A stretch of 64,000 nt of DNA from Linnemannia hyalina (lineage: Eukaryota; Mortierellomycota; Mortierellomycetes; Mortierellales; Mortierellaceae), in contig JAHRHY010000004.1 in assembly GCA_019671135.1 (NCBI GenBank), forward strand, positions 2,852,001 through 2,916,000, read 5' to 3'. Every line of letters starts with the position of its first letter. Position 1 is the first letter of the stretch. The translations under genes were made by a program, and so were the position numbers. Positions 15,061-34,578 of the stretch are shown here, piece after piece. The notes under the pieces are model-generated. The model saw nothing but the letters and a program-made list of their open reading frames with translations. It had not been told where the DNA came from and searched no databases.

Positions 15061-18000
15061 GCTCAAGGTGAATCAGAAAAAATGGACAGGAGTAAGAACA
15101 CAGAGAAGGGTTCAGCTCATGGGTTGCTGTTTTTCATATTACATAAATCGGGCTTACAGTTTTCAGGGCGTCCACGTTCAATTGAATAAGGGGCCTGGCC
15201 GGTGCGTTTGAAAAAAACGGCATTTAGTGTCGACAATGCGGCTCATTGAGACTTGTTGGCGATAGAGCACTTGCTTCGTGCTCGAACTAGATCGTGGAAC
15301 AAAACAAAACAAAAAAAAATTCATGCCAATGAGTTCGCAGTGCTGTTACATAAAATTTTAGACGCGAGAACTGAACAATTGAAGCATTGGAGATCCTTCT
15401 TTTTCAGCTATACCACTTATCCTTTCATGATTGCCTTGGTTCAGTTGTTGTGCAGGAGGATTTGTCATTCGTGAAAATAAAATAGGGTACTGCGCCATCG
15501 TGTGTACGCGGGCGGTACGCGTTAGACTGTTTTTTTTTTCCTGCCGGGGGATACGGAATCGTGAGGGATCTAGGGACGTTTGAACATGTTGAGCACAAAA
15601 CTGGATTAGAAAAAAATGATGCTGGCGGGTTGCATTTTCGCGGCATTGTCTTCGTTTTAACTAAGCAAGTAACTCTCATATGTAATAGTCATTCCAACAC
15701 CAATAGCAGCAGGTCCGATACTGAAGTCATCTAACATACCTTCAGGAATTTTTTTTTGTTCGACTTCATGATCATTCGCATGGTTCTTGTGATATAGTTT
15801 TATAGCCTCTCTTACCAAAACGTCTTTAACGGACATGATTAGCCCGTTAAACTCTTTTCTGCCAACTGGCGCTTACTCACGCAATTCTCGAGGTATATCA
15901 CGATACAACATTGGGCTTTTCAGATGATGATTGACTGTTGTAATTTGTTTGGGGGATGCATTTCGGCGCTGTTCCTGTCGACTGCGCTACGAAGTCGACG
16001 ATTTGTTGAGAACTATTTTGTAGGGGTATCGGGATATCGGTGTAAGTTGTACTGCCGCCTGATCCATGAGAAGAAGAAAACAACAGCATGACATTGGACC
16101 TGTTACGCCTTCTTGTCACGCAGACACACTATGTTCTCGTTGCCTGATGCATCAATTTTGCCGCGACAGGCTTCCCTCTCGAGTCTCCTTGACCGACAGA
16201 CCTGCGATCTATTATCGCAAAACCCCCTTCCACCTCGGCGATTCATAAGGCCACATCATCGTAGGCCTAAAGAGGTCAGTTTATGTAATATCATGTTAGC
16301 ATGAGCGAGCCTCGCTTTAATTGCACGATGAGAAGCAATGGTTTAGTGTCAATTGTGCATTTCATTTGGTTCTTTTACTTTTCTATGGATACTCACAATG
16401 ATCCACACATTCACCTTGATACTGTACGTCTACAAGGCCACAACAACCAAGAAAGAGTATCATTCATGAATATCATTTAATACAACCTGGGCGAAGTTAT
16501 CTCGTAATACGAAGTGGCATTGTGGCAAAGTAAACGTACTTTCAAATGTCAAAGTTTCTTTATGAACAAAGGTAGGGGGAGGGCGGTTTTTGGCGTTTCT
16601 TTTTCTGTTGGGGAAGCTGCTGGTTTTTTTTGCCTTTCTTTTCTTTACACAGCCTGAAGCTACTCTTGCTGTATTATTTTGCATTTAACCAAATTGGGGC
16701 TTGATGTGGCAGTTGCAGTCGTCGATTTGGTATGTTTTCGCTCCCTGTTTCTTTTCAGCACTCTTCTTCTTTTATTGAAGGCGGTTACTGTTAGGAAAAG
16801 AAAAATGCTGACCCCTCGCATTCATTGGAAATGGACAAGCAGATACCGTACACAACATCAACAAACAAAAAAGAGCAAGGCCCTCAGGACCAAAAATCGA
16901 TAACAAAGATAACTTCAGCTTTAGAACATAGTTTCACATAAAGCAAGTATAAGATTTAGATAAAATATTACATGGCCCCACCGTAGGTTGCCGATCACTT
17001 TCGATGACGCGAGTGTGGAATTCTTAACAATCAATTTTTACATGCGCGTAGCGCGTCGAAAAAAAAAGCTGGTTACACGAGTCTAGCACGCAAAACTGTT
17101 TAGGCATGACAACCTTCGAAACTGACACCTTCTATTTGGCACTTACTTTACATGCACATTTTAAATTCGAAACCAGTACAGCACAACACCCCTTTGTTTA
17201 TCTTTTTCTTGACTTTCCTCACGTATTTGCGAATACCCAATAGGCACAGTCATCTCGCTATACCGCTTACTTAACTTTCCTCCACTCATAGCATACCTCA
17301 TCCAAGTTCACGTTCCTCTACTCTTGCTCTGCTCATTCTATGAGATGTTATCTTCATTTCTGTATCTTTTCAATGATTAGAGAACATTCGCTCCGAGGTA
17401 CATGCATCATTCTCTTCAAACTACAATCGAACTCCAACTGTAAATAAATATGCATGTTGTTATTATATGTTCTACTTTCTGGTCTTCAGCTCCCCACGAT
17501 CTTTCATTTGCTCTGTACACAGCTCTGTGACCTGGTTGCAGGAATAGTTCCCGTCTCTAGATCTGAACTTTACCAAACCATTGATCTCCTCGAATGCTGT
17601 CAAGAGTGCCTCGTCCTTGGCTATTCTCCTGATGTTGCTTACATGCCTCTAAAATGTATTATATGATTGTACGCTCCCATGAATGCGCGCGTGCGGTTAC
17701 TCTGCCCTTTTGTCAGTATCGTCGCTGTGTTGTAATTGGTCAAGTCGCGGTACGTATCCATCAGTCAAATCATTGTCACCTGTCCCCTTTGATATTCTTT
17801 CTCCTCTTTTTTTATTTTTCTTCCACATCTCGCTCTCTTGACCTCTTTCTCCTTTTTACACCATCCCTTCTCGTTGTGATACACCCGCCACACATACAGA
17901 GAAGATTATGGCATCTAATAGTCCAGGAACAACAAACGTACGTACCTAACCGTGATCTGCTGTGCAGCCTAGAACGCGCTTGATTGTTTTCAAACAATGG

Positions 18001-18425
18001 AATGTATAAATCTGCACTTACATTCCATTGTTTAATCTGAATCATCATTTCACTAAAAGACATTTGTTGAGGGAACGGAGACGGAATCAAGGCGACACGA
18101 TGATCCGGAATGCGGAAAGGCTGACGATATGTTTGAGGTATTATACCCCATTTTTTCTTTCATTCGCGGTGCTCGTGAGGGCTGTGAGCCTCGCTTGGAA
18201 CAAAAGCGACTGACAGGCCTGTTGTTCTTGAAATCTTTTGTGTCGACATTGGATGTTCAATATACAGGCCCTCTTCGCTACTGCGTGCTGAAGAAGTGGG
18301 ACCCTCTATCGAAATTGCTCACATTTAAACAGGACTCTAGATTACTACCCGCTATCAAAGCCAGAAATCGACAAAACGTTCCGAGCGAGCTCTACATTTC
18401 AAGGGACTGTTGATCGACAAGCATC
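15061..18425. other. AT-rich gene-poor stretch with unrecognised ORF remnants
   Basis: About 3.4 kb without a confident gene. On the minus strand, 16119-15898 and about 15840-15655 carry short open stretches (the latter starting MSVKDVLVREAIKLYHKNH) that could be further pieces of the decayed kinase-type gene or of an unknown protein; they are separated by stops. From 16.9 to 18.4 kb nothing was recognised. The base composition is clearly more AT-rich than in the flanking core genes. Confidence 0.4.
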
Positions 18426-19116: not shown

Positions 19117-21328
19117 ATGATACACAAGCAAATTGTCATCTTAGTATCACTGGCCTTGTTAGCCGTTTTTACTCTGGCGGAGGACTGGTCGCCCGGACTT
19201 CGTGCTATATGGGAGGAAGAAGGTTCTGTGAACATTTTCGGTACGCCCGTTGATATCGCAACTGAATGTGATGGCCAGCCTTGTAACTATCCTCCACTCG
19301 TCAGATATGATCAAGCTGACTTAGGTGGACAGTCTTGTATACCCGCCGGGAGTGATCAAGTCATCTGCAACTATTTGCCCGAAAATGCCACCCTGGTATC
19401 AGAGTCCGGGTTGAGCCGTACATCCCAGGCTTCAAATAGATCCGTTCATAAGCCGGCCAGACCAGCTCGACGCCTTTTGGCTACAAATGGATCCGTGCCC
19501 ACCCAAACCTCCTATCTATCCTCGGCTTCCAAAGGATATCTGCCCATCCAAACCCCTCATCTATCCTCGGCCTCCAAGCGATATTTTCCCAAACCCATCG
19601 AAAATCCTAATCTAACCTCGGCTTCAAAAGGTTCTGTACACAAGCGCGCCAAAACCCCTGGCAAACTCCAGAAAAGATCTCGGTGGGCGCTCGACGGTGC
19701 GAAAATGCTAGTAGTCTGGCCAAGCAACACAAGGATTACCTATGGCGTCTGGGCAGAGGACAAGCTCATACCTGATCTCGATAACATGAGGCACCTGGTC
19801 AAGGAGTCTTTTAATCTCTGGAAAGATTCGTGTGGAGCCGATGGCTCGACTTTTATTAACAATTGGGTGCCATATAACGAACCCAAACTGCCGGTGGCGA
19901 ATGTTTGGTTCTATTTTGTAGATGGAACTGTGTGCAACAATGAGGTAGCAATTGCCTGCGCCTTTTTCCCAATCCATTACGGCGAAAGAACGACTGTTAT
20001 GGTCAACAACAAGCGGCTTACCAAAAAGCAGACCAAAGGGATGATTTTGACTTTGGCTCATGAGCTTGGACATCTATTTGGACTTGCACATGAAGAAGTC
20101 AATGACGTGTCTTACTACTGGACAGCTTCGCCCTACGATGCAAAATCTCTCATGCATAGTTATTACGATCCTACCCTGTCGCTCACCAAAACGGACTGTC
20201 GTACCATGAATACTATACCAGCCAATTCAAATTGGTGAAGTGTGGACTCGTGGATGGGGAACCACAGAAGTGCAAGCCTTTTATGAGGGATGTTGTAAAC
20301 CTAAAGAAGGTTGAGTTATCAAGAAATGATGGCCTAAAATACACACAGACCGGCCGAGACGAGCTCTTGGAGGACGTGGATAGCCGAACATGCTTAGGCG
20401 GCGATATCTCAAAGTACTTCGTGAACGCTCCGTACGACGTTAGTGGTTTTGGTTATTTCGACCGTGGACTCGTTCTTAGCCAGTGTTTGGCGGTACGTGT
20501 GCCATCCGATCCTGACTTCTTTTATGCCATGCAGAGCGATGGAAACTTTGTGTCGTACAATTCCAAGACCCGTCAAGCCGTTTGGTCGACAAGTTCTCAA
20601 GGTCTCGGCACCAAAGGCGACTACAACATGTACTTTCAGGAAGATGGCAATCTTGTTATCTACGATATCAAAGGCAAGTCTAGTGTGTGTGAATGAATAT
20701 TCATTAGCATATGTAAATTGAATGGATTGTTGACTTACATATGTTAATGAATATCCATTCACACACACTAGGCAAGCCCATTTGGTCGTCTGTGACGCAC
20801 GATGGGTCTCCCCGTAACTTGAGGCTCAAGGCCGTAGATTGGCAATTCAGGGACGGTCATATGTCTATAACCGATGGGTCTGCCCGCGCCGTCTGGGGTT
20901 CTTTTATTTATATTGCCCATTCCAAAGTGCCTATCCAGCAAAAGGACCGTGATGGTGGGGCGTCAGGCTATTGTTTGGATGCCGGAATGAACGGTTCTGG
21001 CGCCGGAACCATTCTCAACATATGCAATGGTAGCGACAATCAGCAATGGAACATCTATACTGATGGCATTATCCAAAACACGCGCACAGGCTTATGTTTA
21101 ACGAATTCCGCTTCCGGCAGTACCAATGGCGGCACAATTACAGTATTTAAATGCCATCGAGGCGACAACCAGAAATGGGAACTCCATTTCGACGGAACTA
21201 TCAGAAATCCCTCGGCAGGAAAGTGCCTGGACAATATGGGACAGCAACTGGTGGTTGGCAATAAGATTCAAGGCTGGGACTGTATCAATGCATGGTCGGA
21301 GAAGTGGTGGATTGGTGGAATTCCATAA
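19117..21328 (+). CDS. Secreted zinc metalloprotease with bulb-type lectin and ricin-B lectin domains (one frameshift)
   Basis: The first reading frame (19117-20236) gives a signal peptide (~1-21), a Cys-containing leader, Ser/Thr linkers with SSASK repeats, a Kex2-like QKR site (~187) and a metzincin-type catalytic region with HELGHLFGLAH (His ~315, 319, 325). Near 20210 the homologous frame shifts by one base: the next frame reads EYYTSQFKLVKCGLV directly, so one base appears lost (mutation or assembly error). It continues through a bulb-type (B_lectin) domain with two DGN(F/L)V repeats. This is interrupted at 20674-20771 by a palindromic element that is probably spliced as an intron, then resumes as GKPIWSS and a three-lobed ricin-type beta-trefoil with QQW/QKW motifs (~20950-21310). 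Inferred role: an extracellular peptidase targeted to glycans. Its leader is duplicated in the gene at 21993-22421. Confidence 0.78.
20673..20778 (+). mobile_element. 90-bp hAT-like miniature inverted-repeat element acting as a probable GC-AG intron
   Basis: The element spans 20681-20770. Its terminal inverted repeats are 36 bp with two mismatches (20681-20716 and 20735-20770), separated by an 18-bp loop. The ends start TAGTG, matching the TAGNG ends of hAT transposons. It is flanked by an 8-bp target-site duplication with one difference (GGCAAGTC at 20673-20680, GGCAAGCC at 20771-20778), also the hAT size. The element carries in-frame stops. Splicing from AAAG|GCAAGT to CACTAG|GCAAG (intron 20674-20771, 98 nt) restores the lectin frame ...DIKGKPIWSS exactly. 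No second copy was found in this window. Confidence 0.85.
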
Positions 21329-21992: not shown

Positions 21993-22421
21993 TTAGTTGT
22001 TGTTCTGGTCAATCTGCTTAGCTCTACGTTTCTCTTCACGGATTTCTCTCCTGTATTGCGCAGCAGTAGCGCACCAACCTCCTCCTGTTTTTTTCTCAAA
22101 AGCAGCATCCTTTTCTTCATCACCAAAATTTTCCTCCCATTCCTCATCAGACATGGAGAAGATTCCTGATCCAGGGCAGGGTTCATTATCTTCGCAATAT
22201 CCAACGAATTCTGAGGGCTGAGATGGGTCCTGCTTGACGAGTGGAGGATAGTTACAAGGCTGGCCATCACATTCAGTTGCGATATCAATGGGCACACCGA
22301 ACATGTTCACAGAACCATCTCCCTCCCATGCAGCACGAAGTCCGGGCGACCAGTCCTCCGCCAGAGTAAAAACGGCTAGCAAGGCTAGTGAAACTAAGAT
22401 GGTGATTTGCTTGTTTAACAT
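21993..22421 (-). CDS. Small secreted protein sharing the leader of the lectin-metalloprotease
   Basis: 142 aa from the ATG at 22421. This start was chosen because it aligns with the start of the protease at 19117; an upstream in-frame ATG at 22496 would put a hydrophobic extension before the signal peptide. Residues 1-50 (signal peptide, then EDWSPGLRAAWEGDGSVNMF and DIATECDGQPCNYPPLV) are nearly identical to the protease N-terminus. After that it diverges into an acidic, Cys-poor tail ending in EEKRRAKQIDQNNN. No catalytic motif is present. It is either a truncated paralogue or an independent small secreted protein that shares the leader module. The coding frame is intact. Confidence 0.7.
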   Translation of the reverse strand: MLNKQITILVSLALLAVFTLAEDWSPGLRAAWEGDGSVNMFGVPIDIATECDGQPCNYPPLVKQDPSQPSEFVGYCEDNEPCPGSGIFSMSDEEWEENFGDEEKDAAFEKKTGGGWCATAAQYRREIREEKRRAKQIDQNNN

Positions 22422-26443: not shown

Positions 26444-27005
26444 GGAAAATAAAATAGATGCTCTTCAGGGCGATAGAAAGCATTTTTCTTGAAACAATAC
26501 AGATTTGCCATTTCAGATCCGTTTTCATCCCGATCAACAGCATCCTAAACCCTGAATACTGTATTTCGTACTCAGCTACTGTTGCTATTGGTATTCGCAA
26601 ACCGCGCACAGATGTAAGAAACTCACCGGGATGAGCGGAAGGTTATTCCCTTTCACCATGATCGCGTCTCTGTTGGATTTATAGGCCTTTTTTTATAATA
26701 GTTTTTTTTTTCTTTTCTCACCCTACCTTTATTTTAATATTCATCTGTACAAAGTGAACAAAAACAAAAACACCATCACGTCCGCAGCTTCCATTGTTAG
26801 AAAGACATGTTTATTCTTCCTTTCCAGGGACTCCATCTGTGTGTGTATCTTTCTTTATTGTCACATGATTGTTCAGAAAAAAAATAAAAAGAAAAGAAGT
26901 GCTCGCTACGACTATAAAGGGGGGGATCTCCAGATACATGCTCTCTGTCTTTCTTTTTATCACAGTTGGAACACTTCCCCGGATACCAATTGATCGATCC
27001 GTCCC
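26444..27005. other. Deacetylase 3' flank and left part of the retroelement
   Basis: T-rich stretches (26685-26735) and AT-rich sequence, with no gene. The 5' boundary of the DIRS-like element should lie here, but no terminal repeat was identified. Confidence 0.4.
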
Positions 27006-28508
27006 ATGTCCAATGAACAACTTGAAGCTCAACTTTCCGCCATGGCGGCACAGATCCACACACTTACCACCATGGTCACTCAGCTCAAAACTCAAGCGCC
27101 AAGTGACGCCAAACCACTCGTCTACAAGAAACCCCGTCCCACATACATCGTCCCCACACAGCATCTCCTCAACATCTATCCAGCCATCGAAGTCCAGAAC
27201 AACTTTTTCAAAGCCAAACTCGACCCTGACGACAAAACCCTCGACATGTCCGACTATCACTACCTGGAAGGAATGGATTACGAAGCCTACCAGCTCATTG
27301 ACGTTCAGCAGAAGGGCGTCCAACTCTCCAACGACAACAGCTTTGCAGAGAAGGAACTGGCCAGGATTCAGACTCGACTGGCCCACCTCACTCGACCTCT
27401 CGACACGCTCGCTCACCTTGCGTCACAGGACGACACAGAGAACATATGGAAGGATCGAGCAGTTGCTCTTGCCAACACGATCCGGTATCTTGCAGGCGAC
27501 ATTGCAGCTCAAGCCAACGAGTCGCGACAAAACATTCTATACCGACAAATGGGCCTGGGCGACCCCACGCCTAAGCCTGCTGCCGTCACTCTCCATGATA
27601 TCGTCGAGAGAAAGGCAGCCCTGGATATTATCAACAGCGCCTTCCCTGTTAAGAAAAAGCAGCAACACAAGCCTTCTAACAAGGACGGCGACAAGCAGCA
27701 GGACAAGACCAAGTCCAGCGACACATCCAAGGACAAGCCCAAGCAACAGAAGGACAAGGGCAGCGGTAACAACAACGGCAACAATAACAACAGCACTAAG
27801 AAGGGCGGTTCTGTCACCAATGGGCGCAAGCCTGACAGCAGCAACAATTCCGGTATTAAAAAAGGAGACGGACAGGGAAAAGGGGGAGGGAGAAGACAAG
27901 CCAGTAGGAGGCCGTCTTCACCACTTTCAGGAGGCATGGAAGGGGATCACGAGCTCGTCATGGGTCAACCAAGTGATTCAGGAGGGCTTCGGAATAATTT
28001 TCAACAAGCCACCCCCTTTACGCCTGCTTCCCCTTCACGCCCCCTTCAATTCAATCGAGGAGCTGTACGCCATATCTTCAGAGGTCCGATCTTTACTGGA
28101 GAAAAAGGCGATCGAAGAATGCAAGAGCGACAAAGGCTTTTACTCTCGGATATTCACTATACCCAAGAAGACAGGCGATCTACGACCTGTACTGAACCTT
28201 CGCCCGCTCAATCAATTCATCACAGCTCCACATTTCAAGATGGAAACATTAACCACCATCTGTCGCATGCTGAAACCCAACGACTGGCTAACCAGCATCG
28301 ACTTGGCCGACGCCTTCCTACACGTCCCGGTCAACCCAGCACACAGGAAACACCTTCGCTTCCGCTGGGGCAACAAACTCTACCAATTCCGTACACTACC
28401 GTTTGGCCTTTCATTATCCCCTCTCGTTTTCACCAAAATCCTTCGACCAGTTCTCAAGTGCAAGGACCAAGGGGATACGCATCTCTGCCTACCTGGACGA
28501 TTTACTGA
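27006..28508 (+). CDS. Gag-like ORF of the DIRS element
   Basis: Starts MSNEQLEAQLSAMAAQIHTL with a short coiled coil, then an unrecognised ~200-residue helical region, then a Lys/Asn/Asp/Gln-rich basic tail (~215-300). The frame stays open to 28508 (500 codons), but beyond about 27900 it overlaps the reverse-transcriptase frame and the tail is probably fortuitous. No CCHC knuckle is seen, as is usual for DIRS gag. Gag identity rests on position only. Confidence 0.6.
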   Translation: MSNEQLEAQLSAMAAQIHTLTTMVTQLKTQAPSDAKPLVYKKPRPTYIVPTQHLLNIYPAIEVQNNFFKAKLDPDDKTLDMSDYHYLEGMDYEAYQLIDVQQKGVQLSNDNSFAEKELARIQTRLAHLTRPLDTLAHLASQDDTENIWKDRAVALANTIRYLAGDIAAQANESRQNILYRQMGLGDPTPKPAAVTLHDIVERKAALDIINSAFPVKKKQQHKPSNKDGDKQQDKTKSSDTSKDKPKQQKDKGSGNNNGNNNNSTKKGGSVTNGRKPDSSNNSGIKKGDGQGKGGGRRQASRRPSSPLSGGMEGDHELVMGQPSDSGGLRNNFQQATPFTPASPSRPLQFNRGAVRHIFRGPIFTGEKGDRRMQERQRLLLSDIHYTQEDRRSTTCTEPSPAQSIHHSSTFQDGNINHHLSHAETQRLANQHRLGRRLPTRPGQPSTQETPSLPLGQQTLPIPYTTVWPFIIPSRFHQNPSTSSQVQGPRGYASLPTWTIY

Positions 28509-29872
28509 TCGCAGCGTTGAGCCGGCAGGAGGCAGAGGAGCACACGAGAGCAGTACGACAGCAACTCGAGAGATTGGGCTTTCTGATCAAGGAGAGCAAA
28601 TCGACAATGGTGCCGACCCAGTGCATCGACCACCTCGGATTCAGAATCGATACCAGGACCATGACCCTTTCAGTCCCAAGGAACAAGGTCCGCGATCTGA
28701 GAAGAGAGGCAGAGAAACTGTTGAGGAACAAGACAACACCACTCCGCAACCTGGCATCGTTTATCGGCAAGGCGATGGCGATGACAGCAGCCGTGTTTCC
28801 AGCCAGGCTGATGACTCGGAGGCTGATTCAGGTTCAGAACCAGGCCTTGGCGAACCAATGGAAGTGGACAGCACAGATTCACCTCACCGATCCAGCTCTG
28901 GAGGAACTGGAGTGGTGGAGGAGGCATCTGGCACACTGGAATGGACAGAGCTTTCTCCCTCACAAGACCGACAGCGACGTTTACACCGACGCTTCCGACA
29001 ACCATTGGGGGATAGTAATGGACGAGACCACAATATCTCGACCATGGACGGAGGAGGAGCAGGACCACCATATCAACTGGAAGGAGTTGAGGGTCATATG
29101 GCACCTGGCGGCTCCTTCATGTGCAGAGGATATAAAAAAGCATATAAAAAATATCCAAAGCCCAAGAAACGGAGTGTTGACTTCCATAGCTGACATATCT
29201 CTTTATAGTGGGCAACAGAACACAGAATAAAATAGCAATAGACAGCACAAGATTTTATAAAATGTAATCTCTCCCCTGTATTTCACGACAAAGATACAGT
29301 TGAGAGTAGAGGTGCATTAGATGATCACATACAAGAACTACTCCCCTTAATCTCGCTGTGAGGGGTACAGTTTGATAGTAGATGGAGACATTCAAGAGAT
29401 TGGTGTGCGAAAAATAAGACTTTGTTGTTTGAAGAATATCGTGGTGTTTAGTAGGATAGTTAAACAAAAAATGTCACAATGGTTGTCTTACATACTTGGT
29501 ATCATATATACATTCTCATCTAATAGTCGCTATGGATATCGTCAAGATCTACAGAGATGTAACAAACACCATATGATACTTTGGACGTGAAAGGCCTCCC
29601 TGGTTCACCTCCCGGAGATGCAGGGACGATCCATCAACATTGTGTGCGACAATCTGACAACAATACCGCATATCAACAGATTCGGCGGAACTCGATCGCC
29701 AATCCTCTTGGACCTCACCTCCGACATCTGGACACATTGTTTGCAGACGAACACTCGATTGAAGATGACTTACGTTCCATCAGCCTTCAACCCAGCAGAC
29801 GCGCCATCCAGAAAGATGATCACCCAACTAGAGTGGTCTGTCGCATATTCGCCTAATGGCACCCTAAGATAG
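27820..29872 (+). pseudogene. Reverse transcriptase-RNase H of the DIRS element (frameshifted and interrupted)
   Basis: The first part runs in one frame to about 28466 (reverse-transcriptase fingers and palm: FYSRIFTIPKKTGDLRPVLN, SIDLADAFLHVPV, RFRWGNKLYQFRTLPFGLS). The palm catalytic YLDDLL motif and the thumb are in the next frame from about 28470, so a small indel lies near 28470. RNase H follows (SDVYTDASDNHWGIV, INWKELRVIWHLA). It is then broken at about 29112 and resumes in the same frame at about 29594 (LPEMQGR, INIVCDNLTTI, YVPSAFNPADAPSR). No functional enzyme can be made from this copy. Confidence 0.8.
29113..29593. mobile_element. ~483-bp insertion in the RNase H region
   Basis: RNase H reads ...VIWHLA up to about 29112 and continues ASLVHLPEMQGR from about 29594, both in the same frame. 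The intervening AT-rich 483 bp is foreign. Its ends are loosely inverted (CTTCATGTGCAGAG against CTTTCACGTCCAAAG) and the flanks are GGCTCC / GGCCTCC. It has no coding capacity. The type is unknown, possibly a nonautonomous DNA element. Confidence 0.55.
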
Positions 29873-30014: not shown

Positions 30015-31489
30015 GTACGTATGATAAAACCTTAATATATCGCAGGTATCATGGATGACATCCACTCGTTTTATTAACCTTCCATCCCTACATCGTTGTC
30101 CTTGTTACCTCTGAACGACAGTCTATGGTATTTCTAGCTAGCATTCAACAAGCGCCATTCCAGCTCTCTGCTAGTCCTCCCAACCCCAACGTTTTTACTC
30201 GTTCCTTTGCAACCCTTGTTGTATCTAACCCTGAGCAAAAAGTCTGTTCGTTTGTGATAAGGTAGAACGAAATAACTGAGTTGACCTGCAATGATCAGAC
30301 AGGACTCGGAGGAATGTGTATTGCTTTTGTTATATTTTATTATGAAGGAAAGGAAAGGAATAAGAAGGTGTGCAGAATAGAGGCAGGGGACAGATGGAAG
30401 TGAGTTGTTGCAGACTGAGGAACAAAACAGGGGGGAACGGGGTCTATTTATGCTAGAAGCCGGAGGAACGGAAAAGGGTTGAGACGGGAACTGGGGACTG
30501 GTCTGGGAGCTGGAGGCAAATGGGCAAAGAGACAAAACGGAGGAAGGACAAGGTTGGTGACAGAATAATCCTAGGCAAATATACTCTTTACGGATAACTA
30601 CCTAGGATTCAATATAGCTCGTAGAAAAGGTATATGAGATCCAATGTAGCTACATCGTAGAGGATATATACATATTCCAAAAGGTACCCCTAGAACTGGA
30701 GTGACCTGGTGGCGGAGTCACGTGACGGGATAAATGCAAGACGCGTTCAATGGAACTAGGAGAAAACCTATTCTCACGTTACCCGGGCAACCTGGGGCCT
30801 GGCTGTCTTGGGGCAAAACGTGGCATGACCGGGATAAAGGGTGTCGAGATGGTAGTGGTACTGACTTCAAGGTACTTGGGTTTTGTCATGCCTAAGCAAA
30901 TGGGATGACAAAAGTAATGTACCATATTAGGAGCTGAAAGTTAAAACAAAAAAGAATAAACCCGAAGCCCCGGATGCTTTGTCGCCTGGGTGCAAACGCA
31001 AAAATTTGGTGGCGTGAAAAAATGCAATGGTGCCCTGACGCGTTCTAAGACACTTGGGCCGAATTGCGGATTCCAAAGGGCGAGCGATTCAGTAACTTCG
31101 GTGACATAATTCTCGCGCCCTGATCCCTTACGTCACAGTGACGAGGTCGTTAGGCGCCGCTCCCACACTTTCAACGCCCACACCGTTCCATCTTTCCGCG
31201 CTTACTTCATCACCTTTACCTTCACTCGATTCCTTTCTCTGTCACTCCCACACTAGGCATCGTTTTTATTGTCTCTTCCCCACCTTTTTCCTCTGTTCGA
31301 CTTTACTTTCCGTTTGTTTCTCACCGCTCCCTTATTGCTATTTCCACACCTATCGCATTTGCCACTGTTCCCACACCATCTTTCCCTTTTAAACCCACAC
31401 CCCCTTTCCTTTCTTTCACTCCTCGACTTCGCCATATCCTTTACTATCCAGCCTTCTTCACCTCATTTTCACAAATACTTCACAGAACC
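30015..31489. other. Intergenic region between the retroelement and the Crinkler-type gene
   Basis: About 1.5 kb without a recognisable gene. It contains a CACGTGAC E-box-like site near 30718, AT-rich CCTAGGATTCAATATAGC-type sequence near 30590-30650 and, from about 31150, a strongly pyrimidine-rich leader before the ATG at 31490. The last 300 bp is the likely promoter and 5' UTR of the Crinkler-type gene. Confidence 0.5.
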
Positions 31490-34400
31490 ATGGCCGACAA
31501 CTCTCAGAACCTGATCCTGTTCTGTCTTGTTGAAGGACTGCCCTCGTCCAGGGCATTCGAGATCGAGGTCTCTGAGAGACGTACCGTTGCTCACCTCAAA
31601 GACGCAATCAAGCTCAAGAAACCCAACGAATTCCGCGATGTTGATGCAAACGAGCTCACCCTCTACCGTGTCTCCATTCATGACGACGGTACCTTTCACG
31701 ACAAGACGGAGCTGAACAACCCTAGAAAACGCCTCCTCGAGTTGTTTACCAAGAGTCCCGACGACAACACCTACATAATCGTCCAGCAACCCCTGCCAGG
31801 TATTGCAAACGTGCTTTGCTCTTATTCATACCTTGCGCATGAGCTTGTTCCTCTTGCTAACCTCAATTCACGCGTCCTATTGCACTAACATAATCCTTGC
31901 ACCTATCCTAGCTCCCGGCTCCATTCCTCTCTCGGATCCTGGTAGTCCGCTGTCTGGTGAGTACAATTGAATCGCCTAAGCATGCATCGCAATGATCATT
32001 TTGTGTCTAATGCCCGTTCTCTTTTTTATTCTAATCAGGTGACCTCGATGCTGATATCAAAAGGATCGCAGGGAAGTTTTTCGCTTCTGGATCACCTGCC
32101 GCCACCTTTCTTGAGCGATTTGTGCAAGGTCATGAACAGCTTCCGCTTACTACTGGAATCGTGCCTGGTTTGCCAAGAGTGTGGCTTCGGAAAAATCCAC
32201 GGCGAGATGAAACACGACCTAGTCTGCTCTTTCTTCAGTTACCTGACCCCTCTTCAAGCAGTGAGCCGTCGAAAGGACTCTCGTCGGACGCCATCTTGGA
32301 TCTGATCGGAAAATGTAGCCCAGGGAACGTACCGATCTTTGGGGTCTCAGGATGTGGAAAAACCCGCAGCATGATGGAGCTGCTATGTCGGCAATGGGGA
32401 TTCTACTTCAATGCTTCTGGGGAGGATCTGGGGTCGGACGACATGACCACTCTTCTGGCGCAGGTTGGATCTCGTCTGGAAAAGGACCGCAATGCGAACA
32501 ACCGTTATGCAAGGACGATGACATACCTGCTATTCCTCTCTCGGCTTTTGATCCTCCAGTTCTGCTTGAAAGTCCAGAACAGCAGCCGGTCTTTCACGAG
32601 CGCGAGATGGACCCTTCTGCAGACTTGCCCTCACATGTTCACAGACATCTTCGAGCATCTATTCCAGAAATTTCTCCCACTGCACCAGAGATCCACCACT
32701 GAAGAAAGAGTCCTGATGGATATTGTCCGAAAGGAGTTTCAGGTTACGCGGACCTGTCTTATTGAGCATGGAGGTGCACCCCAATTTCTGGATGGTACCA
32801 AACTCCTTGTCGCTCACGATGAGGCGCAAATTCTCGGAGAGGAATCCTTTGGACGTTTTGAGTCGATGAATGGTGCCAAGGCGGACCGTCCACTTCTGTC
32901 CCCAATCCTGCATGGTTTTCGCAACATCGAGGGCGCTAACGAACTTACGCTTTTGACATCCGGCACAGGACTCAGCATCTATACTCTCACTTGGGCGCGG
33001 AGCGCGGGATCCATCCTAAAGCATGAGCCGGATGATTTCGCCTACATGGAGTTCCCCGGATGGACCAATCGGCAATCAGTTGAAACCTACATTGCTGGCC
33101 TGAGGAGCCTTTTGCAGGACGAGGATGCGAAGCAAGCATTGGACATGCTCCTGCCATCAGAGGCCATCGACATGATGATGGAAAGGCTTGTCGGTCGTTT
33201 TCGTCCAATTGTGACCGTGATTGGTATGTTATGTTTCCATTCGCATCACAACGACATACAACGGACAAAATTAAAAAGGATTTCTCAGCTGACTGTTTGT
33301 TTTCTATTCATAGAGAGGACCATCGGGAATGGCAAACCTGGTGCCTGGCGAGACGCGATCGATGAGACAGAAAAGAAATTGGTATCTTATGACTTCCAAA
33401 GGGTACCGGGTAATTTGATATATGAGCTCAAGCGAATAGGTATGGATTGTCTGCTTCGTTGGTCTTATTTTTCTGCCATCCTCATTTCCATGTTCTCATG
33501 CCATTTCTCACTTTACTCTCATACATGTTCCATAGAGAGCAAACACCACAAGAACCTGCAGGTTATCAAAAGGCTTCCTACCGTTGAGAGAGTTTTAGGG
33601 CTACTCCTTTTTCAGCGGTATATGTTTGGGGCCGACAAGCTAGTCCTAAAGAACGCAGTACCAGAATTGGTTGAGCGTGCTTTCGGCCGTATCAAGATCG
33701 TCGACGGAGATGCGAGGACGGTCCTCGATGAACCATTCGCGCTTAAGGCTGCCGAAAACTATTTCAGGATGCTGGATTCCAACTTCATGGAGACCACGGA
33801 TTTCTGGATGCAAGAAATGAACAGCGCCTCAGCTCAAGGGTTCGCATGGGAGCTCATGATGATGAACGTTTTAACCGAGACTTTCAAGGCAAGCGCACTT
33901 TCCGACTGGTCGCATGAACCCAAGATATCCTCTCTGTGTGCTACGCTGGAGGGGAATGCGGAGATTGTCGGTCTGGACGATCAGGGGTTTCAAAGAGGAA
34001 TCACACATGAGCACATCTCGATGGAGGAATTCATGGAGGCACATGTCAACAACAACTCAATGCGAAGCGACCAAACCGTTCCTCCCTTCTTCTTCCCCAA
34101 AGCCAAGCCCTCTGGACCTGACATTGTCTTTTACATTCGGGTCCAAGCTGCGATTATCCCCGTCTTTGTGCAGCTAAAACTCCGCCAAGTGCTTACGAAA
34201 GCAGATTCGAACCGTGCTGTGGAGTCCGTCTCAAAACAAAAAGTCAAGAAGCACGTGAAGGACCTCGATGAGTACTGTCCCGCCAATGTCTACGTCAGCA
34301 TGATTATTGCGTACCCTGCCAATGTGATAGATTCAATGCGTCCACGGCCTGATATCGACTTCGAAGCCATCGCTGCCAGACGTGCTTCCCTACGTCCAAG

Positions 34401-34578
34401 ATCAACGAAGAACTTCCACGACAACGATCTGCAGCAGGTGACGATCAGGATTGACCAACGCAACTTTGCCAAGATTTTTCCAAAGAGCCATGTCGACTTC
34501 TTGGATGGGATTAAAACTCCGGTGAAGCGACCCGCCGTCGACAAGCAGGAACAGGACGATCCCAAGAAAACAAAATAG
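31490..34578 (+). CDS. Crinkler (CRN)-type protein: ubiquitin-like header, P-loop NTPase, PD-(D/E)xK nuclease-like tail
   Basis: Five exons splice in phase: 31490-31799, 31912-31956, 32039-33223, 33314-33439, 33536-34578 (902 aa). Residues ~8-100 form the Crinkler ubiquitin-like header (LILFCLVEGL, FEIEVSERRTVAHLKDAIK). After a Pro-rich linker comes a P-loop NTPase: Walker A GVSGCGKT (220-227), Walker B-like LLVAHDEAQ (Asp/Glu ~379-380). The C-terminal part has restriction-endonuclease-like residues: Glu ~661 (GFAWELM), GPDIVFY Asp ~751 and QLK Lys ~770. This architecture (header, NTPase, REase) is the ancestral CRN/CR form described in fungi and oomycetes. Inferred role: nucleotide-controlled DNA-acting effector in conflict or symbiosis. 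No signal peptide was seen. Introns 3 and 4 are multiples of three without stops. Confidence 0.85.

Follow-up and report, generated by a model that had tools for sequence, protein, structure and literature searches.

In Linnemannia hyalina, one exon of a matrixin-lectin gene contains a 90-bp element with terminal inverted repeats (TIRs) and a flanking 8-bp duplication. We regard it as probably an orphan hAT-type MITE that inserted once in this gene and that serves at most as a one-off intron of the maize Ds kind, by putative splicing. The window, that is, the whole stretch of DNA analysed, is 64,000 nucleotides of contig JAHRHY010000004.1, and all positions refer to it unless stated otherwise.

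Structure and classification of the element

The two TIRs are identical at 34 of their 36 positions, and the flanking duplication (GGCAAGTC on the left, GGCAAGCC on the right) is identical at seven of eight (Table 1). Repeats of this length with two mismatches, TAGTG at both ends and a single difference between the duplication copies had all been described in the original prediction and were recovered here. We scanned the window for 14-bp inverted ends lying 40–400 bases apart within 8-bp flanking repeats, allowing at most one mismatch in each. The scan returned two matches; both are registers of this element, one of them offset within the palindrome. In 100 windows simulated under a first-order Markov model, the same scan gave a mean of 0.01 matches and a maximum of 1. 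The arrangement of TIRs and duplication is far beyond chance, and the simulations rule out a chance palindrome as its origin.

Table 1. Positions of the element, the host gene parts and the candidate introns in the window.
Feature	Position	Strand	Remark
Matrixin (M10) metalloprotease part	19117–20208	+	Frame 1, domain match
Gapless frameshift, net one base, from frame 1 into frame 0	20203–20214	+	10 homologues
Bulb-lectin-like part before the insertion	20211–20675	+	Frame 0, homologue alignments
Target site duplication, copy 1, GGCAAGTC	20673–20680	+	Possible source of GC donor
Possible GC–AG intron, 98 nt, exact restoration	20674–20771	+	Inferred from sequence
Left TIR, 36 bp, starts TAGTG	20681–20716	+	Possible GT donors at 20683, 20685 and 20689
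GT–AG intron of GenBank protein KI688_009715 (P0001), 83 nt, five extra residues	20689–20771	+	Protein comparison
Spacer, 18 bp	20717–20734	+	Branch-point-like TTGAC from 20730
Right TIR, 36 bp, CACTA at end	20735–20770	+	Branch-point-like TTAAT from 20744
Target site duplication, copy 2, GGCAAGCC	20771–20778	+	First G completes acceptor TAG
Rest of lectin part and ricin-B-type lectin domain	20771–21325	+	Frame 2

The terminal repeats of hAT transposons begin YARNG, a pattern to which both ends of the element conform, and the duplication has the 8 bp looked for in this superfamily. On its ends and its duplication length only, the element is best read as a putative non-autonomous, MITE-sized hAT-type DNA transposon, in keeping with the hAT-like assignment made earlier. 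Like a MITE, it is short and non-coding, with TIRs and a target site duplication; MITE families typically have multiple copies per genome, whereas this assembly yielded a single one. The terminus rule of the CACTA superfamily was also compared with the element's ends; we ruled that superfamily out by reasoning, since the order of the termini is reversed and 8 bp are duplicated.

The hAT dimerisation domain (PF05699) has 28 matches in the genome, in 26 stretches. About 10 of these stretches had one or both ends readable, and most had no defined end. The readable ends are of six kinds (four CAGTG, one CAGAG and one CAGGA), and only CAGGA departs from the hAT end rule. The C50 element (L053) has the ends CAGTGCCATATACA and the C8 element (L036) the ends CAGTGTTTCTAACC and CAAGGTTTTTAACC with an exact 8-bp duplication, ACATCAAA; the other readable starts are CAGTGGCTGGG, CAGTGAACCAC, CAGGACTCATG and CAGAGGTCTGG. 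Spanning 187–5733 of L053, the C50 element is a complete-looking hAT transposon in its own right; its inverted ends are 354 bp long and its 8-bp duplication, ATTGCAGG, is perfect. We scored five of the six kinds together with L056, an inverted repeat of doubtful kind, leaving out CAGAGGTCTGG. The scored ends match the first 15 bases of the element at 5–9 positions, and past the first bases its repeat resembles none of the six readable kinds. Among the 28 PF05699 matches, with ends readable in about 10 of 26 stretches, we found no partner transposase; the partner may have been lost.

Genome-wide search for further copies

The assembly searched comprises 51,506,068 bases in 50 contigs. Across this whole genome, a 24-bp TIR sequence with up to three mismatches occurs at two places, which are the two ends of the element; a pattern of paired ends 40–70 bases apart recovers one element, 20681–20770 itself; and the inner 36-mer with up to three mismatches occurs at one place, inside the same element. 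The 15-bp TIR end, with at most one mismatch, has 24 genomic places compared with 28 for the reversed control. There is no second close pair among the 24, and the other exact match (a single one, on C11) has no partner repeat in the surrounding 601 bases. A direct DNA search of the genome with the element returned only the element's match to itself. The genome searches score best candidates only, and words of very high frequency are passed over in the DNA search, so that divergent or truncated relatives could escape them. A 26-base TIR pattern had no match in bacterial, archaeal and viral contig collections, a result that says little about fungal relatives.

The original prediction had called the element introner-like, had proposed a genome-wide search for its TIR and had named the lack of other copies as grounds for rejecting the reading. 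The only copy found was the one at 20681–20770, and the introner-like reading was not borne out. Since the pattern and DNA searches gave no second copy, we rejected an introner family for this genome. The element is an orphan, with no other family copy found in the assembly. Compared with the test of at least four similar introns per genome given in the available text of PMC9860276, the count here is a single element. The other mark of an introner, absence from orthologous positions, was observed: 16 of 20 homologues are continuous over the site, and the remaining four are not aligned on both sides of it.

Host gene and empty site

The two lectin reading frames, 0 upstream and 2 downstream of the element, match a Mortierellaceae lectin family with a ricin-B-type C-terminus. 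As to the earlier label of bulb lectin, the bulb-lectin-like piece has no Pfam match itself, but PF01453 is present in two homologues and several are named bulb-type lectin domain-containing. In the 16 homologues that are continuous by alignment, frame 0 passes into frame 2 with no extra residues. P0023 is also continuous on reading and P0022 stops before the site, giving 17 of 22 in total; P0018 is counted as continuous despite an alignment that extends into the element's frame by a few residues, and so is P0010, whose two alignments end six residues apart. The four homologues not aligned on both sides are P0002, P0004, P0020 and P0021, and of these P0002 and P0004 stand nearest to the ricin part in the tree. 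Most homologues are annotations, in some of which an intron at the site could hide; the source tag is only jgi, ena or lgn for P0003, P0007, P0010, P0019 and P0023. The simplest reading of these alignments is that the homologues have an empty insertion site, and since 17 of 22 read across it, the insertion would be lineage-specific. The original prediction had suggested comparing the site in related strains; the homologues support an empty site in relatives.

Conserved residues were counted with 18 homologues offered (P0020 and P0021 were omitted as distant) and at least 70% coverage required, which left 8, 11 and 12 homologues for the three pieces. The window keeps 18 of 18 conserved residues over 20047–20208, 60 of 64 over 20211–20675 and 51 of 53 over 20771–21325. 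In all three pieces, this retention falls within the range of the relatives, at its upper limit or close to it, which speaks against long decay of the gene.

Several other features of the surroundings were recorded. A second gene start lies head-to-head with the host gene, at 22235–22421 on the minus strand; over 187 bp of N-terminal coding sequence it is 91.4% identical to 19117–19303 on the plus strand, and beyond that the two diverge, in what appears to be a partial duplication. An imperfect 64-nt hairpin (17981–18044; −21.7 kcal/mol, z −5.4) lies about 1 kb upstream of the host gene, and no target duplication was seen at it by eye. On the plus strand, 26869–29230 holds overlapping retroelement-like open reading frames, one of which matches reverse transcriptase (PF00078, E = 1.1e-8). 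The open reading frame at 31154–31885 encodes a Crinkler N-terminal domain (PF20147, E = 7.2e-18) and is followed by a long one at 32035–34578.

An independent frameshift

Upstream of the element, the frame of the host gene changes at 20208–20211. Of 20 homologues tested, 10 align on both sides of this point, and in comparison with every one of these the change is gapless. The site lies outside any long homopolymer, and sequencing coverage is about 265x (13.7 Gbp over 51.6 Mb, our division of the figures in PMC8444964); the frameshift may well be genuine. Near 20208 we counted 91 GT–AG or GC–AG pairs that keep both frames open. An intron as the cause of the frame change was rejected, because the homologue alignments are gapless and such an intron would remove conserved residues. 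As assembled, the host gene is broken or mis-assembled near 20208, whatever the splicing. Because the frameshift is separate from the element, removal of the element alone would not give a full protein, and the argument that splicing keeps the gene working is weakened.

Under neutrality, we expected 1.58 stop codons in 19117–20208 and 0.75 and 0.89 in the two lectin pieces, 3.2 in total, taking half the divergence of the two arms (3 of 44) and presuming that the arms, which may have differed earlier, were identical at insertion. None was observed in the three coding pieces; the chance of this is about 0.04 overall and about 0.2 for the lectin pieces alone. Coding constraint after the insertion is mildly favoured by these counts. 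Together with the conserved residues, the lack of stops would be compatible with continued use of the gene once the element had landed.

Candidate splice sites

A non-autonomous hAT-type element that inserted once into the exon, duplicating 8 bp, would have brought the parts of an intron together as follows. The terminal TA of the element and the opening G of the duplication would form the acceptor AG. As donor, either the GC in the duplication could serve, with 98 nt removed and the coding sequence restored exactly, or a GT in the left repeat, with 83, 89 or 92 nt removed and short in-frame additions. All four pairs are in frame and open, the 92-nt pair using a second AG at 20776. The GCAAGT donor and CACTAG acceptor of the original prediction are in place, and joining them would keep the frame open and restore the codons exactly. 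Since the three GT–AG pairs are open too, exact restoration is not the sole frame-keeping outcome.

Donors were scored at nine positions against the U1-type consensus. The GC donor, which has an AG before it, matches at 8 of 9 positions and, given the base found in the second copy of the duplication, would match at 7, so the one difference between the copies does improve the donor, as had been proposed. The GT donors match at 6, 6 and 5 positions, the last being that of the 83-nt intron. At the variable duplication base, the 16 aligned homologues encode, by eye, Ala (8), Pro (6), Ser (1) and Arg (1), which weakly suggests that C is the likelier older base. Over 7800 coding positions in six stretches, a GY donor of at least 8/9 occurs at none and one of at least 7/9 at 11.

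To see how often such sites arise, we placed the element computationally into 7,134 sites, once in each orientation; in these 14,268 trials each site is counted twice, the counts being equal owing to the symmetrical ends. Exact GY–AG restoration was obtained in 7.6% of trials, and in 0.8% (110 of 14,268) with a donor of at least 7/9. Any open in-frame pair was found in 57%, so the existence of an open frame is weak evidence; pairs that were open and whose donor scored 7/9 or better were found in 1.1%. For ten shuffled inserts, the corresponding values were 6.6% (exact), 0.6% (exact with a donor of at least 7/9), 39% (open pair) and 7.4% (strong-donor pair). That shuffled inserts give strong donors more often than the element speaks against an element built as an intron. 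The strong exact donor is unusual and derives from the landing site, not from the element. Its 0.8% chance, a post hoc statistic, is some evidence for selection on splicing.

In a predicted fold, both splice sites are contained in the single hairpin that the RNA of the element forms (−65.9 kcal/mol; shuffles −25.6 ± 3.4; z −11.8). Such a hairpin could block splicing or could bring the splice sites together.

The best protein match of the locus is L. hyalina KI688_009715 (P0001), which splices from 20689 (GTGAAT) to 20771 and retains KSSVC. The same model leaves out conserved matrixin sequence that follows the HELGH motif, as well as a ricin stretch present in P0002; over 20047–21325 it appears to bridge the frameshift, the element and the conserved ricin stretch by predicted introns. 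The genome of strain SCG-10 (51,558,230 bases in 52 contigs, PacBio, HGAP4) was annotated with Funannotate, and its report gives no RNA-seq and suggests it as future work (PMC8444964). P0001 is probably a mis-annotation, and the model is not evidence of splicing.

Weighing the explanations

We give nearly an even chance to plain insertional disruption, in which the gene was already dying or was killed by the element, no useful splicing occurs, and translation stops in the left repeat or at the frameshift. Two independent lesions in one gene, a long stable hairpin across the splice sites and strong donors rarer than in shuffled inserts speak for it, as does the result that no relative of the B-lectin part was found elsewhere in the genome at E 0.001 (one candidate scored), as against three L. 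schmuckeri proteins among the listed relatives. It sits less easily with the conserved residues kept downstream of the frameshift, with three stop-free pieces and with a strong exact donor that chance would seldom supply. These same observations argue for a true transposon-made intron, with efficient 98-nt GC–AG splicing, a gene functional after the insertion and a frameshift that is an assembly error or very recent, as does, weakly, the duplication difference that raises the donor if C is the older base. We nevertheless consider such an intron rather unlikely. Three GT–AG pairs are open as well, the hairpin encloses both splice sites, the frameshift lies in no long homopolymer and coverage of the assembly is about 265x, and the absence of stops is a weak argument for the lectin pieces alone. 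In addition, GC–AG introns are only 1.009% of annotated fungal introns according to the available portion of PMC7072748.

Splicing at the GT–AG pair of the GenBank model, removing 83 nt and adding five residues, is improbable. P0001 does join at the same acceptor as the 98-nt intron and keeps the added residues, but its donor is the poorest, it drops conserved stretches, and it is a Funannotate model from a genome paper that reports no RNA-seq. We judge that some splicing of the transcript falls a little short of an even bet, and that use of GCAAGT as the main donor is rather unlikely. Doubtful, too, and a shade more so, is the fullest scenario, in which a hAT-type MITE made a functional GC–AG intron at its only known insertion and a later base change strengthened the donor. 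Of the earlier interpretation, the hAT-like mini-element, its 8-bp duplication, the empty site and a possible exact GC–AG intron stand, and the introner-like label does not. The preferred reading is still an orphan hAT-type insertion that is at most a single Ds-like intron.

Significance and comparison with known systems

As it stands, the insertion is of an ordinary kind for a transposon, apart from its unusually convenient donor, and it warns that gene models may make an intron of an insertion without evidence. The literature searched yielded no MITE with hAT in Mortierella and no introners in Mortierellomycota. If the transcript is spliced, the element would represent an intron born of a single DNA transposon, in a lineage of fungi without a described case in that literature. 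If the GC–AG intron is functional, it would preserve, as a fossil, the way in which an introner family could begin, and within that literature it would be the first DNA-transposon-derived intron described in Mortierellomycota.

Dennis 1988, Wessler 1991 and Giroux 1994, cited in PMC3260210, are said to describe maize insertions of Ds/Ds1, which are hAT elements, that are spliced as introns. For Ds1, the available text of PMC5432752 describes donors, acceptors and the 8-bp duplication. The element shares with these a non-autonomous hAT-type insertion in an exon, an 8-bp duplication and candidate splice sites near the element ends; it differs in host, in terminal sequence and in its size of 90 bp, and splicing is reported in maize but predicted here.

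In the portion of PMC9860276 available, introners with TIRs, a target site duplication, a donor derived from that duplication and an acceptor at the element end are described in Symbiodinium, and introner cases that add a few codons are described as well. The L. hyalina element shares the TIRs and the target site duplication, and its candidate donor and acceptor are laid out in the same way; unlike those introners, it is single-copy, and its splicing is a prediction. The families of that study have at least four introns by its method and five or more copies per genome in its results, and the fungal introners named in the same portion, those of Pezizomycotina/ascomycetes, are called an outlier for target site duplications and TIRs. 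Judging from the accessible part of PMC8469720, the symmetrical (stw)introns of Hypoxylaceae are likewise fungal and hairpin-forming, with inverted repeats of 45–55 nt, but they differ in having no flanking duplications, multiple copies and RNA support. By analogy, the best parallel for the element would be the single maize Ds insertions that act as introns, rather than an introner family.
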